A DNA stretch of 64,000 bases from Vreelandella lionensis. GTDB lineage: Bacteria; Pseudomonadota; Gammaproteobacteria; Pseudomonadales; Halomonadaceae. Under the pieces are notes generated by a model. The model worked only from the letters and a program-made list of their open reading frames with translations, was not told where the DNA came from and did no database searches. Position 1 is the stretch's first letter, and each line of letters opens with the position of its first letter. This document shows, piece by piece, positions 43,462 through 52,702 of this stretch. A program made the translations under genes and the position numbers. The stretch is from NCBI RefSeq assembly GCF_002087295.1, contig NZ_MWVI01000035.1, forward strand, positions 1 through 64,000. The letters are read 5' to 3'.

Positions 43462-43528
43462 ACGCTACATACACTTAAACCATCGCTAGCAGTCGCACTG
43501 CTCATCTAACGCCGCTGAGGAGACCGTA

Positions 43529-43903
43529 ATGGCCAACGTATTAGTGGTCGATGATGAACCCAATATCCTACTCTCCCTTGAGTTCCTCATGTCCCATGCC
43601 GGGCTGACGGTGACGACAGCGCCCGATGGCGAAACCGCGCTGCTGAGAATTGCCGATGCATCCCCCGACCTGTTGTTACTGGACATCAGCTTGCCGGGCA
43701 TCAGTGGCTTTGAAGTGCTGGAGCAGCTGCGCCGCTCAGAGTCCGAACGGCATTTACCGGTGATTATGTTAACGGCTCATGGCCGTGAAGTAGAGCGGGA
43801 AAAAGGCTTTGCGCTGGGCGCAGATGACTACGTCACCAAGCCTTTCTCTACCCAACAGCTTGTAGAGAAGGTCAAAGCCCTGTTAGCCGAGCGTGCACCA
43901 TGA
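43529..43903 (+). CDS. Single-domain response regulator (CheY-like)
   Basis: 124 residues, receiver domain only: VVDDEPNI with the acidic pocket, phospho-acceptor Asp in LLLLDISLPG near residue 53, Thr in MLTAHG near 84, and Lys in YVTKPFS near 105. There is no output domain. It overlaps the membrane exonuclease gene, with the symporter-kinase two genes on. Those kinase-type proteins are its likely partners. Confidence 0.9.
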   Translation: MANVLVVDDEPNILLSLEFLMSHAGLTVTTAPDGETALLRIADASPDLLLLDISLPGISGFEVLEQLRRSESERHLPVIMLTAHGREVEREKGFALGADDYVTKPFSTQQLVEKVKALLAERAP

Positions 43904-45958
43904 CACGCAAGGGCCTTCCTAAACGCCAACGCTTGGTCGGCGTGTGGCTGCTGCTAAGCGGCGTTAGCTTAGTAGGGGGAGCGCTCTTTGCCGCTTGGTT
44001 AGATAGCCAGCTGGCACTTTCAGGCGTGGCGCGTGCGGCTCTATGGCTAGGCAGGTTTTCAGGCGGCATCACGCCTTTTTTTAATGGGCCTGCTGCTGGA
44101 GCGCATGCTATTTACACCCCTTCGCCACCTTCAAGCGCAGCTGGCACGCTGGGTAGCCAACCCAGATGCCCAAGACGAACACACTGCAGAGGGCTGGTTA
44201 AAAGGGCTTGGCCCAGACCTTCGCCGCGTCAGCCACAGCTGGCGCGCCGACCGCTCACGACTCGCCACCGCCCATGCAGAAGGAGCGCGTAGCGCATCGC
44301 GTATACGCCAAGAGCTTGAAACGTTGCTGCAGGTGCTTGAAACACCGCTGTTACTTTGCGACCGGCACCGGCGGGTGATGTTGTTTAATCAGGCTGCCGA
44401 AAACTTCTTTGCGGGTAATACCGGCCTGGGGCTTGGTAAACGTCTGGATGCCCTGCTGCCGACAGCTACCCTTGCCAACGCCATAGCACAACTACCCGAC
44501 GACGGCTCGCCTCGGGAAATGCTCGCCCCCTGTGACCAGCGCTGGTTAAAGGTTGTCATTCGCCGGGTCCCCGGCAGTGAACGCGAAACGCTGGTGACCT
44601 GTAGCGATGCGACCACCACCTGGAATAACGAAATGGGCGTGCGGGCCGAACTTAATCATCTATTGCCGCCACTTCGCCAGCACTCCGCCAGCTTAAGCAG
44701 CGCCGCTGATGCGCTGCGTCAAATTCCCCCCTCAGAAACGTCGCTTGAGCTACGAGCACGTTTAGAGCAAGTAGTGCACGATGAGAGCCAAGCATTAAAC
44801 AAGCACGTCGCGGAGATTGGCTCGCTGCTGGACGATCTTCAGTACCACGGCGAACGTTTAAGACCCATTTGGTCCAACGATTTTTGGCAATCGCTGGATG
44901 AGCGCCTTGACCCTGCCCACCGCTTAATCACCCCTATCGGCGTGCCCGCTTGGTTTAAAGGCGACGCCCCCGCGCTGATTGAGCTATTCCACTCTCTGGT
45001 GGATCACCTGCGCTGCCACTTGCCCAGCAGCGGTTTTGAAGGTGAAGTCACGCTCAACCCAAAACGCGCTTACGTTGACTTGATTTGGCAAGGCTCCCCC
45101 GTCCCCGAAGGCGAGCTCACCATTTGGCGCGAGCACCCGCTGACCACGCTACCGCTTAGCCCCTCAGTCGCGGATATTCTGCGCCAGCACGCGACCGATA
45201 TCTGGAGTGTTGCCGATGCGGATAAACGCCACGCACGACTAAGACTGCCGCTACCAACGATTGCACAAGCCCAAGCGCCTCGTGAGCTCGCCCCTCCGCG
45301 CCCGGAATTCCATGACTTTGGCATCGCCCAGCTCCCTGCGCCTGACGTGGCTCTGGCTAGCAGAGCTCTACGCTGCCTAGATATCGTGGCGTTTGATACG
45401 GAGACTACTGGCCTTGAGCTGCGCCGAGGAGACACGGTGATTAGCCTGGGCGCCTGCCGGATCGTCAATGGCCGTTTACTGGCGAATGATGCGTTTGATC
45501 ATTTCGTGGACCCGAAGCGCGCCATTCCTGCTGCCAGTACGGTGATTCACGGCATTACCGATGCGGATGTCGCGGGCGCTGCCCCCCTTGAAACAGTGCT
45601 TGACCTGTTTCGTGATTACGTCGGTGAGGCCGTGCTGCTCGCCCATAATGCGGCTTTCGATATGCTGGCCATTAGCGACCATGGCGTTGCCTTTGATATT
45701 CCCGTTTTAGACACACTGCTTATTTCAAAAGCGCTCGATGAAGCATTGGATGGTCACGATTTAGACACGCTAGCCAAGCGCTATGACCTCCACTTTCCAC
45801 CGGGCACTCGCCACACGGCGTTAGGTGATGCCCGCGTTACCGCAGAGCTATGGCTATCACTGCTGCCACGGCTCGAGGCCCGAGGCATTGATACGCTGGA
45901 AGAGCTGCTTGCCCTGCAGGCAAATGCCTTTGATAAAGAGGATGCCAGCGCGCCATGA
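43900..45958 (+). pseudogene. Membrane PAS / degenerate kinase-like protein fused to DnaQ-type exonuclease, frameshifted
   Basis: Two membrane helices (about 15-60), then a PAS domain (VLETPLLLCDRHRRVMLFN). A DHp/HATPase-like region lacks clear N and G boxes. From about residue 495 a DEDDh exonuclease follows: FDTETTGLEL, LLAHNAAFDML and RHTALGDARVTAEL. The frame breaks within a run of seven T at 44076-44082: GGITPFFNG in one frame, FLMGLLLERM in the next. Removing one T gives 685 residues. A nuclease carried by a sensor-like membrane scaffold is unusual. The gene overlaps both neighbours, suggesting one complex or pathway. Confidence 0.8.
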
Positions 45959-46161
45959 ACCCCTTCAGCGCTCCCTCCCGCAGGCGCGAACGGCTCATCG
46001 CGTTGGCCCTGCTGGCACTGTTTATGTTTTGCCCACCGATGCTGCTTATTGTTGATCGTTTACCGGGCCTGCTGGGTTGGCTACCGCTCTACCTATTTGT
46101 CGTTTGGGGAGCGCTCATTGGATTCACCGCTTGGCTGGTTGAGCCTCCCAAGGAACCATGA
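45955..46161 (+). CDS. Small two-helix membrane protein, 68 aa
   Basis: Coupled by ATGA overlap at both ends to the exonuclease and the symporter-kinase. A basic N-terminus and two hydrophobic segments (LIALALLALFMFCPPMLLI and LPLYLFVVWGALIGFTAWLV), ending in EPPKEP. Small proteins of this form precede sodium/solute symporters in other operons, so a helper role for the next gene is a fair guess. Confidence 0.7.
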   Translation: MNPFSAPSRRRERLIALALLALFMFCPPMLLIVDRLPGLLGWLPLYLFVVWGALIGFTAWLVEPPKEP

Positions 46162-48898
46162 CCATGCGCGGCGATTGGGTAGTGATTGGTACCGCCTTTT
46201 GCTATTTGGCCCTGCTCTTTATGGTCGCCGCCTGGGGAGACCGGCGCGCCGAACAGGGGCGCTCGCTGATTGGCTCGCCTACGGTCTATGCCCTCTCTAT
46301 CGCGGTTTACTGTACTGCCTGGACGTTTTACGGCAGCGTTGGCCGCGCAGCACAGTATGGCCCTAGCTTCCTACTGATTTACCTGGGGCCGACACTGGCG
46401 ATGCTGTTAGCCCCTTTTACACTACGCAAAATGGTGCGCATTGCCGCACAGCAGCGCATCACCTCGATTGCCGACTTTATCAGCGCCCGCTACGGCAAAA
46501 GCTCTCGTTTAGGGGCGCTCGTGGCCATCATGGCGCTCATCACCATCACCCCTTATATCGCACTTCAGCTAAAAGCCATCACGGTGAGTCATGCGGTACT
46601 GATGAACTACCCGCTGGGTGCCGATATCACGCTAGAGAACGAACGCTTCTGGATGGACCGCTCTTTTTGGATAGCGATGGTGTTGGCGGTGTTTATTATT
46701 CTTTTTGGCCCCCGTCACTTAGATGCCAGCGAGCGCCACGAAGGGATGGTGGCTGCCATTGCCGTAGAGTCCCTGGTGAAACTGATCGCCTTTCTGGCAG
46801 TGGGCGTATTTGTCACGTTCATCATGTTTGCAGGGCCAGGCGCCCTCTTAGCCGAAGTCGCTGCTACACCAGCATTAATCAATAGCATGCGCCTAGAAAA
46901 CGTACCTGGCGGCGCAACGGGCTGGGTGGGTATGCTGCTGCTGGCATTTCTGGCCTTCTTTACACTACCCCGGCAGTTCCAGGTTCTCGTGGTGGAGAAT
47001 GTTGACGAGCAGCACCTCCATCGCGCCAGCGGGCTATTCCCGCTCTATTTGCTGTTGATTAACCTGTTTGTCATCCCGATTGCCTTAGCCGGGCTGCTAC
47101 TTGTCGAGGGCGATCCCGATAGCTTCGTGCTCACGCTGCCCCTCTCTGCGGGGCTAGAAGGTTTGCCGCTGTTAGTCTTTATCGGTGGTCTTTCAGCCGC
47201 CACCGGCATGGTCATTGTTGAGACGATTGCCCTCTCTACCATGGTCAGCAATCAGCTCATTATGCCTCTGCTGCTGAAAGTAAAGCGCCTTTATATTGGG
47301 CGCCATGGCCGGCTTGCCGACTGGCTACTCAACATTCGGCGCATCGCCATTTTGCTGATTCTACTCATGGGCTATCTCTACCATGCGCTGATCGGCGATA
47401 GCTACAGCCTGGTAACCATCGGGCTGGTCTCTTTTGCGGGAGTGGCCCAGTTTGCCCCTGCACTGCTCATCGGGCTTTACTGGCGCGGGGCAACGCGCCA
47501 GGGGGCAACGTTAGGGCTGCTCGCTGGATTTTTTATCTGGTTCTATACGCTGCTGCTGCCGGGGTTTGCACAGTCGGGCTGGCTGAAAGAGACGTTAATC
47601 ACCCAGGGCCCTTGGGAAATCAGTTGGCTATCACCTTACGCGCTGCTGGGGCTAAGCGGATGGGATATTTATACGCATTCACTGTTTTGGAGCATGCTAG
47701 TTAATGTTAGCTTACTGATTGGCGTATCATTATTCACTCGTCCTACACCACTAGAGCAGACTCAGGCCGCACTATTTACCGAGGCAATGCACCCCAATCT
47801 GCAAACCACTTCACTCTGGCAAGGTGAAACCACCGAAGGCGCACTCCATGCACTGTTAATTCGGTATTTGGGAAGTATGGCAACTCAGCGTGTCTTTGCA
47901 TCCCAAACGGCACAACCTGTTACCGAGACCGATGCTTATCAGCGGCCAGCGTCTAAGGCACTAATCACTCGTGCTGAACAATCATTGGCTGGCTCCCTGG
48001 GTAGCGCATCCGCCAGCGTATTAATCAACTCGGTCTTACGTGGTGAAGCATTAGATGTAGAGTCAGTGCTCACTATTTTAGACACCACCTCCCAGGCCTT
48101 AGAATACAACCGCCAATTAGAGCAAAAGTCCCAGGAACTAGCTCGTGTCGGTGAAGAGCTACGCAGCGCTAACGAACGGTTACGTGAGCTTGATCGCATG
48201 AAAGATGAGTTTGTCGCTATGGTCAGTCATGAACTTCGCACGCCACTAACATCTATACGATCATTTGCAGAAATTTTACGCGACACACCCGATATCGCGG
48301 CCGATAAACGTCAACAATTTCTCAGCATTATGGTACTGGAAAGCCAGCGCCTTTCCCGGCTTATTGAGGAGATTTTGGATTTAGCGCGACTTGAAAGCGG
48401 CCGATTAACCATGAAGCCAGTGGCGGTAAACTTAACAAAACTTGCAAAACAAATAGCGATGCCATCTTCCGCTTACATGAGGAGAACAGTATTGGGTTTG
48501 AGTTTTATGCAGCGGATGCTCCCGCCATTGTCATTGCGGACCCAGACCGCCTTGAGCAGGTCATTATTAACCTACTGGAAAATGCACGAAAATTTGCTAA
48601 CCCTCAACACCCAAAGATAAAGCTGTCTGTTTATCCTATCGACAATGCCTTTCAGCTTAGCGTTGAGGATAATGGCCCAGGCATTCCGCCTACAGAGCGC
48701 GAAAATGTCTTTGAGAAATTCTATCAGCTGCAGCTTAAAGAGCACACTTCAATGCAAGGTCGGCCTAAAGGAAGCGGTTTAGGCTTGCCCATTAGCCGCG
48801 CTATAATTCACCACCTGGGTGGCAAACTATGGGCTACCGAATCCCCATTAGGTGGCACCAAAATGGTATTGGAACTTCCGAAAGCCTCTTTTATGTAA
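46158..48898 (+). pseudogene. Sodium:solute symporter-histidine kinase fusion (CbrA/CrbS type), frameshifted
   Basis: The N-terminal ~530 residues are a sodium/solute symporter domain with about 13 helices (AWTFYGSVGRAA near the substrate site). Then come a coiled linker and HisKA with the phospho-His in AMVSHELRTPLTSIRSF. The ATPase domain is out of frame: after NLTKLAKQ one A is missing at 48451-48453. The next frame gives IADPDRLEQVIINLLENARKF, DNGPGI and GSGLGLPISRA, ending at 48898. Restored length is 913 residues. Relatives sense nutrients such as histidine (CbrA) or acetate (CrbS). Confidence 0.88.
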
Positions 48899-49014: not shown

Positions 49015-50217
49015 ATGCATGGATTAGCTCAACAAGAGAAGAGTGGCCACTACACCATCGCCACCCAACCCATAGTGAATGCCCAGTTGCAACATATTGC
49101 AGATGAGTTGCTCTACCGTGGGGATATATCTGCCTATAGCGCCGCAGTATTAGATGATGTTCAGGCAACCGCTCGTGCCTGTGCTGTGGCTATTTATGAA
49201 ATTGGTTTGGAAAAGCTTTGCGGCCAGCGTCAGATTTTTATTAATGCTTCTGAACAGTGGCTGCTTAATCCCGATTTGGATGGCCTTCCGACCAATCAAA
49301 TTGTTATCGAAGTGCTAGAGGATACTCAACCGAGCGAGCCGCTGATCGCCGCTCTACGTCAACTAAAGGCAAAAGGCTATACGTTAGCGCTTGATGATTT
49401 CGAGCTCACTTCCGCCAATAGTGCGCTATTAAACCTTGCCGATATCGTTAAATTCGATATATCGGTTGGATTACCCGTAGAACTTATTCAACGCCTTTAT
49501 AGCAAAGGGTATACGCTGCTGGCCGAACGCGTAGAGACCTATGCGGATTTCGAGCGGTGTAAAGCACTCGGTTTTCGCCTGTTTCAAGGGTATTTTTACC
49601 AACGCCCCCAAGTGCAAGCCACGCAGACCCAGCGCCGTAGCTCGTCCCGCGCCAATCAAATGCAGCTCCTCGCCCAGCTATATAGCGATAAAGTACGCCT
49701 GCCAGCATTAAGCACACTAATAGCGCGAGACCCATATCTACTTAATGCTGTATTTAAACGCGCCAACTCAGCTGAGAAAGCCTCTCAGCGTCCTGCTTAC
49801 AAACTGCTGGACTGCATCCATATTATTGGCCTGAAAGAGCTGAGAACGCTGGTTTCTATTGTGATGCTGGCGGGCAACAGCCCTGCCAGCAAAGTTAATC
49901 TGATTAATGGATTAACGCATGCGTTTGCCTGCGAAGCGTTGGCTTTACAACGAGGCCTTGATGGAGAAGAGAGCTTTATAACCGGGCTTTTTTCGCATAT
50001 GCCGATAATTTTAGGTGTTGACTTAGAGACCATGCTCCAAGAGCTACCGCTTAACCATGCTATTCGCCACGCCCTTGTAGGGTACCAGGGCCCACTAGGA
50101 GAGCTGTTACGGGATGTCGAAGCTTGCGAGCGGGGTGTTGCTACCCCGGACGTGCCCGCAGAGCTTATGTTGCAAGCAGCCATAGAAGCGCGCGCCCTAA
50201 TGGACGCCCATAATTAG
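49015..50217 (+). CDS. EAL-HDOD signalling protein, EAL degenerate
   Basis: 400 residues. The N-terminal ~200 are EAL-like, but the signature Glu-Ala-Leu reads DELLYRG and further catalytic acidic residues are incomplete (LALDDFELT retained). Phosphodiesterase activity is therefore doubtful and c-di-GMP binding or scaffolding is more likely. Residues about 210-390 are an HDOD domain (LLDCIHIIGLKELRTLV) without the metal HD. This YuxH-type pair is widespread but poorly understood. Its stop overlaps the convergent HlyU-like stop. Confidence 0.85.
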   Translation: MHGLAQQEKSGHYTIATQPIVNAQLQHIADELLYRGDISAYSAAVLDDVQATARACAVAIYEIGLEKLCGQRQIFINASEQWLLNPDLDGLPTNQIVIEVLEDTQPSEPLIAALRQLKAKGYTLALDDFELTSANSALLNLADIVKFDISVGLPVELIQRLYSKGYTLLAERVETYADFERCKALGFRLFQGYFYQRPQVQATQTQRRSSSRANQMQLLAQLYSDKVRLPALSTLIARDPYLLNAVFKRANSAEKASQRPAYKLLDCIHIIGLKELRTLVSIVMLAGNSPASKVNLINGLTHAFACEALALQRGLDGEESFITGLFSHMPIILGVDLETMLQELPLNHAIRHALVGYQGPLGELLRDVEACERGVATPDVPAELMLQAAIEARALMDAHN

Positions 50218-52030: not shown

Positions 52031-52702
52031 ATGAGCGAGGCAATTGCCCGCGAATTGATGGCCCAGCGTTTTCGCAGTTATTTACCGGTTGTCATTGATT
52101 TGGAGACGGGTGGGTTTAATGCCCAAACGGACGCCGTATTGGAAATTGCAGCTGTCACCCTCACCATGGACCCGGACGGTAATTTACTGCCTGACGCGAC
52201 CTATGCGTACCACATCCACCCCTTTGAGGGGGCCAACGTGGAGCAGTCGGCATTAGACTTCACAGGGATCAATCTGGATGACCCGCTGCGTCGCCAAGTG
52301 TCGCTTAGCGAATCCGAGGCGCTGGGTGAGATCTTTCGGCCCATTCGCAAGTCGTTGAAAGCCCACGGCTGCTCACGGGCGATCCTCGTCGGCCATAATG
52401 CTGCCTTCGACCACGGCTTTCTGAATGCCGCGGCCAACCGCTGCAACATCAAACGCAACCCGTTCCACCCCTTCTCAAGCTTTGATACGGCGACGCTAGC
52501 CGGGTTTGTATATGGTCAAACTGTGCTGGCCAGAGCGTGCCGTGCGGCAGGCATTGAGTTTGATAACAAAGCGGCCCACTCCGCGCGTTACGATACCGAG
52601 CGCACGGCTGAGCTGTTTTGCGCAATGGTTAACCGCTATAAAGATTTGGGCGGCTGGCGACTAGCCCAGCGTGAACAAGCGCTGGACGGTGGCGATGAGT
52701 AA
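52031..52702 (+). CDS. Ribonuclease T
   Basis: 223 residues. DEDDh exonuclease: [20 protein letters not shown] (Asp, Glu), [13 protein letters not shown] (Asp), and [15 protein letters not shown] (His, Asp). It trims the 3' ends of tRNAs and 5S/23S rRNA. AAGGAGA precedes the ATG. Confidence 0.95.

Follow-up and report, generated by a model that had tools for sequence, protein, structure and literature searches.

What would an exonuclease be doing on a signalling scaffold, in one operon with a lone receiver protein and a kinase that resembles a nutrient symporter? The question is raised by four genes in a stretch of 64,000 nucleotides from Vreelandella lionensis (Halomonadaceae; assembly GCF_002087295.1, contig NZ_MWVI01000035.1, positions 1 to 64,000 of the forward strand), referred to here as the window. 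They code for a single-domain response regulator (RR), a DEDDh exonuclease fused to PAS and histidine-kinase-like parts (EXO), a small membrane protein (SM) and a symporter-histidine kinase (SSFK). The answer we propose is that SSFK phosphorylates RR, and that phosphorylated RR (RR~P) in turn would bind the pseudokinase part of EXO and switch its nuclease. Taken as a whole, this chain seems to us about evenly poised between right and wrong, its links differing in strength. The parts, folds, residues, co-occurrences and co-losses on which it draws were computed.

Three 4-bp overlaps join RR, EXO, SM and SSFK in a row on the plus strand; the four genes overlapping by four bases each, which a preliminary description of this stretch had read from its letters, were recovered at all three junctions with the same coordinates. 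The features of the operon, based on open reading frames (ORFs), profile searches and structural models, are the following.

43529..43903, plus strand: RR, lone receiver or single-domain response regulator, 124 aa, phospho-acceptor D52 (Pfam Response_reg, E 3.2e-30)
43900..45958, plus strand: EXO, transmembrane (TM) hairpin-coil-PAS-pseudo-histidine-kinase-DEDDh exonuclease, as predicted from ORFs, Pfam and an AlphaFold2 model of the L138 orthologue
44074..44083, plus strand: EXO frame break at 44075, where a T run is one base longer than in genome G015 (DNA comparison)
44348..44608, plus strand: EXO PAS domain (sub-threshold PAS_4; PAS matches in distant members; model residues 150-236)
44612..44854, plus strand: EXO pseudo-DHp hairpin, phospho-His lost, Arg at His+3 (codon 44675-44677) (model helices and 64-sequence alignment)
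44867..45259, plus strand: EXO degenerate CA (ATPase-like) domain (histidine-kinase fold by Foldseek and VIA-align; Trp398)
45299..45319, plus strand: EXO linker motif RPEFHDF, from pseudokinase to exonuclease (conservation across 64 sequences)
45371..45880, plus strand: EXO DEDDh 3'-5' exonuclease domain (Pfam RNase_T; catalytic residues; VIA)
45955..46161, plus strand: SM, 68-aa membrane protein, probably CbrX-like (hhalign profile match)
46158..48898, plus strand: SSFK, SLC5-type symporter-histidine kinase without a receiver (10ed_A match; HisKA, HATPase_c)
48455..48456, plus strand: SSFK frame break, one base missing relative to G015 (DNA comparison)

EXO and SSFK had been described as continuous genes, which holds for the reference genome G015, where both are open (685 and 913 aa), and for other relatives with intact genes, but not for the window. 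As assembled, the frame that begins at the EXO start codon (ATG, 43900) is a 130-aa ORF ending at 44292, most of the gene (44084 to its stop at 45958) lies in a different frame from this start, and SSFK departs from the frame of its HATPase domain near 48455. The comparison with G015 (95.9% DNA identity over 12.5 kb) also revealed an extra base at 43487, outside the operon, and small gaps clustered at 48511-48524 that sum to zero. The breaks are either sequencing errors or real, and the split may be an artefact of the window assembly. The operon of the window may be decaying or dead, whatever the module does elsewhere, although we find this doubtful: both large genes carry single-base breaks relative to the intact genes of G015, with EXO being 97% identical between the two; on the other hand, one of the breaks falls into a T run, the genome is a draft in 100 contigs (80% completeness), and no damage is seen in the RR residues or in the rest of the frames. 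The breaks of the window are not unique, since EXO is frame-broken also in L149 (Halomonas socia, complete chromosome) and in G016 (L049). A promoter scan is uninformative, with one site in the sequence and 3.9 on average in shuffled versions.

In the window protein, Pfam recognizes an RNase_T domain (E 3.1e-24) and, below threshold, a PAS_4 domain (E 0.0028); PAS lies above the Pfam cut-off in the distant EXO members L163 and L186. For a structural model, the orthologue L138 of Vreelandella maris (687 aa) was folded by AlphaFold2 with an alignment of 64 EXO sequences, i.e. 80 named loci minus 16 near-copies, cut or broken ORFs and doubtful starts. The model (mean predicted local distance difference test score, pLDDT, 85.6; predicted template-modelling score, pTM, 0.40) comprises two long N-terminal helices, which we read as a probable membrane hairpin, followed by a long coil, a PAS-like fold, a DHp-like hairpin (helices at residues 238-275 and 281-318), a CA-like domain and the exonuclease. 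When the full model was searched with Foldseek, the top eleven matches were to histidine kinases, and PolC and DnaQ exonucleases came next, interspersed with more kinases. The exonucleases PolC, ExoX and DnaQ are the closest folds to the DEDDh domain; VIA-align superposed EXO on the PolC exonuclease with Z 23.6 (1.8 Å, 188 residues) and on DnaQ epsilon with Z 20.2 (1.8 Å, 163 residues). Because the VIA list for the full-length protein was filled by exonuclease matches only, the middle part of EXO was folded alone (pLDDT 88.0, pTM 0.67). The best 50 of its 883 Foldseek matches were all histidine kinases or kinase-core proteins, including DivL (4q20). Its best VIA row was a kinase complexed with its regulator (Z 13.8), the root mean square deviation of 19.1 in this row being due to a different hinge, and the CA part aligned with PrrB and VanS at Z 13.0-13.2 (3.0 Å, 122-129 residues).

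None of the 64 sequences has a His at columns 254-257; the acceptor site, aligned by eye, is occupied by Glu in 38 of them. Trp398 is present in all 64 at the place where, in an alignment by eye, the ATP-site Asp of the G1 box would be expected. Judged from sequence and model, the middle part of EXO is a pseudokinase, having the kinase fold and lacking the phospho-His and the ATP-site residues, in agreement with the preliminary description of an exonuclease on a kinase-derived scaffold without clear ATP-binding boxes. The completeness of the DEDDh site, likewise proposed there, was borne out: D499, E501, D587, H638 and D643 (G015 numbering) occur in 64/64 sequences of this broad set, and in 76, 76, 76, 75 and 75, respectively, of 76 family sequences, the odd row being the frame-broken L049. 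Conservation extends to the linker between the two parts, where R469 and D474 are invariant and P470, E471 and F475 nearly so among the 64 sequences (L138 numbering).

In SSFK, Pfam detects HisKA (E 1.6e-21) and, on the next-frame ORF of the window, HATPase_c (E 1.8e-28). The HELRTPL motif is found in 47/47 SSFK sequences and the GxGLGL box in 46/47, with one gap, which identifies a DHp-CA core of the active-kinase type. An SSF domain is not reported by Pfam at E values up to 0.1, yet the SLC5 part of the G015 protein aligns with a solved structure, chain 10ed_A (E 2.6e-75, residues 14-624), the match being weak past about residue 530, including the STAC region between SLC5 and kinase, and SSFK also matches the VC_2705-type symporter model of NCBIfam (E 8.5e-11). 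Chain 10ed_A is listed just as "histidine kinase". We take it to be the SLC5-STAC part of CbrA on three grounds: in 10/10 genomes of the order-mate family f21 it matches, at 73-91%, the product of a gene coding for about 990 aa, each of these genes sits behind a 58-aa CbrX-like ORF, and the chain has a Lys at position 196; in the accessible part of a report on CbrA, the Na2 site is filled by Lys196 (PMC13022988). This Lys aligns with a Lys in SSFK, which by its sequence resembles CbrA. As stated in the accessible part of another report (PMC7918813), CbrA and MxtR contain a PAS domain between STAC and DHp. SSFK seems to have no room for one, because only about 57 residues separate the end of the 10ed_A match (624) from HisKA (681); Pfam reported no PAS domain at E up to 0.1, a result that is weak alone, as Pfam also missed SSF. 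The G015 protein ends at residue 913, directly past the CA match (909-911), without a C-terminal receiver. A separate SSFK relative in family genomes (41-46% identity), whose open frames run to about 1,325 aa, is presumably a hybrid kinase, judged by its length only.

SM was compared, profile to profile, with the CbrX-like ORF (10 near-identical sequences); hhalign gave a probability of 81.5 and a score of 30.8, as compared to a maximum score of 17.4 among 60 column-shuffled controls. SM is probably a CbrX relative. CbrX is a 58-aa peptide which binds the SLC5 domain of CbrA and, according to the accessible part of the report, is dispensable when cells grow on histidine (PMC13022988). SM as a DUF4212 symporter subunit was considered as well and is unsupported (hhalign score 15.0), and a comparison with the PDB gave no significant match, with MerF (E 0.33 and 0.75) as the only hit.

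Do these genes belong together? EXO with both its sensor and its exonuclease part occurs in all 36 other genomes of the genus, 34 of which keep the order RR-EXO-SM-SSFK. Separate genes for the two parts in all relatives would have made the fusion an assembly artefact; this explanation is rejected, open fused ORFs being present in same-genus, family and distant relatives. Within the family (201 genomes, including that of the window), EXO and SSFK occur together in 118 genomes, EXO only in nine and neither in 73; the single genome with SSFK only is G130, where the contig begins inside the gene. A search of GTDB contigs with an alignment of 28 EXO sequences yielded at least 535 stretches, some of which may be plain DEDDh proteins, and the best 80 of these were taken as loci. 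Seventeen belong to Halomonadaceae or Marinobacterium; for the 63 more distant ones (28-34% identity), record titles point mostly to Magnetococcales and to alpha-, beta- and gammaproteobacteria, while Desulfobacteraceae, Caldilineaceae and Nitrospirota are named for single loci. Single loci labelled outside the main groups are mostly metagenome bins. The form had been treated as a local one, and this search found it to be widespread across Proteobacteria. RR lies directly 5' of EXO in 49/63 distant loci, and SSFK is within the flank in 33/63, preceding EXO in 23 and following it in 10. In a phylum sample of 398 genomes, in which at most two EXO candidates were scored per genome and some EXO were possibly missed, 67 genomes matched the EXO alignment; 21 of them, where the match comprised the linker-exonuclease part only, were dropped and 46 counted as EXO. 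With SSFK defined by 47% identity or more (37 genomes), both proteins were found in 31 genomes, EXO only in 15 and SSFK only in six. The two genes share a contig in 24 of the 31 genomes, and in 24/24 of these they are on the same strand and less than 600 bp apart. Receiver, kinase and exonuclease thus go together, as had been supposed from the one stretch, and the linkage in family, distant loci and phylum sample rules out chance co-location.

Natural losses offer a view of how the parts depend on each other. A tree computed for 76 EXO proteins of the family, with the pseudokinase columns excluded, shows at least six changes in SSFK presence; G080 forms a very long branch. RR, in which a Pfam scan found Response_reg and no other family, has D8, D9, D52, T82 and K104 intact in 67/67 family loci with SSFK. 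It is kept without SSFK in three family genomes (G070, G154 and G225), carrying D52E in G070 and D9G in G154. The six other SSFK-less family genomes have no RR at the locus, and a search of these whole genomes found no RR match above 46% identity, as compared to 57-72% in G154 and G070. Loss of SSFK coincides with a missing RR or an altered phospho-site in five of the six changes, and for this reason the assignment of SSFK as the likely kinase of RR is well supported at the level of sequence. Another kinase replacing SSFK next to RR and EXO was also considered and rejected: of nine flanking ORFs scanned, one per SSFK-less locus, one codes for a hybrid kinase (L159, opposite strand), three belong to other families and five gave no match at 1e-8; L164 has a weak kinase-like match, also on the opposite strand.

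Being a receiver without an attached output domain, RR must act via a partner, and EXO is not proven to be this partner. SSFK and RR could form a pathway in which EXO is an accessory, namely a decoy or docking partner, with the main output running via RR and another protein and the nuclease fine-tuning the response. That RR degenerates or disappears upon loss of SSFK, with EXO staying catalytically intact in sequence, would be in line with such an arrangement. We nevertheless consider it unlikely: EXO looks like the closest partner of RR, since RR is located directly 5' of EXO also in many distant loci without SSFK counted nearby, 18 of 30 such loci keeping RR.

The pseudo-DHp of EXO follows RR in the family. 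It is of full length in 3/3 SSFK-less genomes with RR and is partly or wholly deleted in 5/6 of those without. It is shortened in G036, G024 and G189 (54, 51 and 30 of 90 residues aligned, respectively), and nearly absent, together with the CA part, in G165 and G186; in G080, with 67/90 residues aligned, it is too diverged to judge. Deletions arose at least twice on the family tree, and the TM, PAS and DEDDh parts persist where the pseudo-DHp is deleted. The persistence of EXO without SSFK in nine family genomes, and the retention of TM, PAS and DEDDh parts by G165 and G186 despite the pseudokinase deletion, could also be explained by a stand-alone PAS-sensing membrane exonuclease with a role in scavenging or turnover of nucleic acid, whose place in one operon with a CbrA-like transceptor would be incidental. 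This explanation is decidedly unlikely in our view, given the tight adjacency of the genes, in two orders and across phyla, and the loss of the pseudo-DHp from family genomes without RR. In family f94 of the phylum sample (G614, G715, G460, G522 and G488), the EXO relatives are short (open frames, 467-512 aa) and were matched in the linker-exonuclease part only, and a 43-44% SSFK relative is located elsewhere in the genomes; these short forms may represent a further loss of the pseudokinase.

Where could RR bind? In DivL, the acceptor position is Tyr550, and R553, three residues on, is one of four changes that cut binding of phosphorylated DivK (DivK~P), as described in the accessible part of the report (PMC4211667). 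In 57/64 EXO sequences an Arg is found at His+3, the place matching R553 of DivL. It is present in 51/53 sequences with RR in the locus versus 6/11 without (p 0.0011); a small residue at His+7 is present in 53/53 versus 7/11, and His+8 differs as well. Five or six docking-face columns exceed random helix-1 sets in conservation, a level reached by 2.25% of 20,000 draws. Adjacency, fold, docking Arg and family deletions, with exceptions, argue for a link between RR and EXO, as far as sequences and models can indicate.

The neighbourhood provides clues to the setting. A DUF294-CBS nucleotidyltransferase is encoded 3' of SSFK in 53/66 family loci with SSFK for which flanks were fetched (52 on the opposite strand, one on the same strand), and in SSFK-lost family loci a match was found in 1/9 (L062), weak and on the other side. 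Among the 67 loci L151-L217, in which neighbour families were named from one representative each, DUF294-CBS is nearby in 32, AcsA in six and DUF4212 in nine, and SSF symporters, which fall into two clusters, occur near EXO in 24 (19 and five). In Pseudomonas putida, pp_0353, which codes for a DEDDh protein, shares an operon with the CBS-domain gene pp_0354; ErdR binds the promoter of pp_0354, and loss of pp_0353 delays growth on pyruvate; a role in mRNA degradation is the authors' speculation, all according to the accessible part of the report (PMC9927547). Monocarboxylate metabolism is the most likely setting of the module. Control of nucleic-acid turnover by a nutrient, as suggested in the preliminary description, would be in keeping with these acetate/monocarboxylate-type neighbours and with the resemblance of SSFK to CbrA.

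The DUF294-CBS partner suggests another role for the nuclease, i.e. that the DEDDh domain removes nucleotidyl groups, opposing the nucleotidyltransferase, and is not a nucleic-acid nuclease in vivo. The frequencies given above (53/66 versus 1/9 family loci, and 32/67 loci) and the pp_0353/pp_0354 pair would fit, as would the CBS-nucleotidyltransferase protein Pflu5625, which is predicted to work by nucleotidylation in the accessible part of a further report (PMC5715377). This role is unlikely, considering that the nearest folds of the domain are the exonucleases PolC, ExoX and DnaQ, that no DUF294 match was found in the window itself, and that the pyruvate defect of pp_0353 is not shared by the pp_0354 mutant. 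To our knowledge, there is no precedent for a DEDDh domain as a nucleotidyl remover.

In the genome of the window, contig C49 carries, separate from the operon, the locus L003 (1441-2166 and 2821-3459, both minus strand), where a DEDDh ORF is close to one that by eye is DUF294/CBS-like and looks cut short. A gene of the spore-photoproduct-lyase family lies just 3' of DUF294-CBS or EXO in L198 (7419-8516) and L215 (7797-8927), hinting at a nucleic-acid context. Just 3' of the operon, the window encodes an EAL+HDOD protein (49015-50217, plus strand) in the position where many relatives carry the convergent DUF294-CBS gene; the corresponding region of G015 lacks this stretch, and 10/36 same-genus loci encode the protein. 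A second DEDDh gene of the window (52031-52702, plus strand; Pfam RNase_T) occurs in 34/36 same-genus loci.

The mechanism we propose would start with SSFK, held together with SM, sensing or transporting a small nutrient via its SLC5 part and autophosphorylating. SSFK would then phosphorylate D52 of RR, and RR~P would bind EXO at its DHp-like hairpin, in a manner resembling the docking of DivK~P on the pseudokinase DivL. Docking, together with input from the PAS domain of EXO as a second signal, would change the activity of the DEDDh domain at the inner face of the membrane, and as a result the turnover of RNA, or of other nucleic acid, might be adjusted in carbon metabolism of the acetate or pyruvate type, often with the DUF294-CBS nucleotidyltransferase taking part as well. 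What we infer here comprises the phosphotransfer, the docking, the control of the nuclease, its substrate and the physiology. In a variant which is speculative and which we hold to be rather doubtful, RR~P would allosterically switch the membrane pseudokinase-exonuclease with the DEDDh domain perhaps acting as an eraser against DUF294-CBS, and a nutrient-set state of nucleotidylation or of 3' ends would control monocarboxylate use.

A number of observations weigh against the chain from SSFK via RR~P to the nuclease. EXO occurs without SSFK in 9/127 family genomes and in 15/46 genomes of the phylum sample, for which the Fisher value of co-occurrence ignores phylogeny. No SSFK was counted in the flank of 30/63 distant loci, 18 of which keep RR; several of these loci are at contig ends, and L179 and L180 have partial SSFK matches just below the identity threshold. 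In G225, the sixth SSFK loss, RR retains D8, D9, D52 and K104; it is diverged (38% identity) and carries T82S, a replacement also present in 10/67 RRs of named loci. With so few events, significance is out of reach for sign tests on independent pairs. Outside the family, the pseudo-DHp is shorter in 4/11 RR-less loci than in any of the 44 with RR; the medians are alike, with 75 residues without RR and 76 with RR, and given these near-equal values it is unclear whether the pseudo-DHp is lost there wherever RR is absent. On the proposed docking face, columns His+11 and His+12 are alike with and without RR, and RR-less sequences are relaxed also in 4/8 non-docking DHp columns and in 1/6 PAS/CA columns. 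Since the non-docking DHp columns relax too, the relaxation is DHp-wide, and its confinement to the docking face finds no support. The rows of this comparison are related, moreover, and L169, one of the 11 without RR, is cut at a contig end. As for the setting, the accessible part of the P. putida report describes no acetate phenotype upon loss of pp_0353, and none on acetate or pyruvate upon loss of pp_0354 (PMC9927547). The missing DUF294 match in the window and the two frame breaks of its own copy belong to the same side of the balance.

With respect to known systems, the operon is reminiscent of CbrXA/CbrB of Pseudomonas, which comprises an SLC5-STAC histidine kinase and CbrX: SSFK matches 10ed_A and shares Lys196, and SM precedes SSFK with an overlap and matches the CbrX-like ORF in profile. 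It differs in that SSFK appears to lack room for PAS, that the partner is a lone receiver instead of the NtrC-type CbrB, and that a pseudokinase-exonuclease is added. The acetate system CrbS/CrbR (MxtR/ErdR) likewise has an SLC5-type kinase, and similar neighbour families; CrbS is a hybrid kinase, as stated in the accessible part of the report (PMC5715377), and SSFK is not. Moreover, the exonuclease of P. putida is encoded by a separate small gene, whereas EXO is fused to a sensor pseudokinase. EXO shares with DivL of the Caulobacter DivL-DivK pair a kinase fold without the acceptor His, a PAS domain preceding it, a lone receiver and the Arg at His+3, as far as sequence and model allow a comparison; the acceptor position is Tyr in DivL and mostly Glu in EXO. 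DivL hands its signal on to the kinase CckA, whereas EXO bears an exonuclease of its own. The latter resembles PolC and DnaQ in its fold and in all five catalytic residues, and differs from them in being without a polymerase and, as predicted, membrane-anchored on a signalling scaffold. The parts of the module are known; the combination is apparently undescribed, as neither a PAS-pseudokinase-DEDDh protein nor this module was found in open-access papers.

If the proposed chain is true, a nuclease as the switched output would represent a new class of two-component output, the phospho-signal reaching the nuclease directly, without transcription, via a pseudokinase that reads a lone receiver. The principle of DivL would be carried from cell fate to metabolism, SLC5-type kinases would gain a new kind of partner, and there would be an entry to the unexplained pyruvate phenotype of P. 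putida PP_0353. Because the EXO architecture, going by record titles, spans several proteobacterial classes (alpha-, beta- and gammaproteobacteria) and Magnetococcales, the module may constitute a general route by which bacteria tie nucleic-acid turnover to carbon supply.

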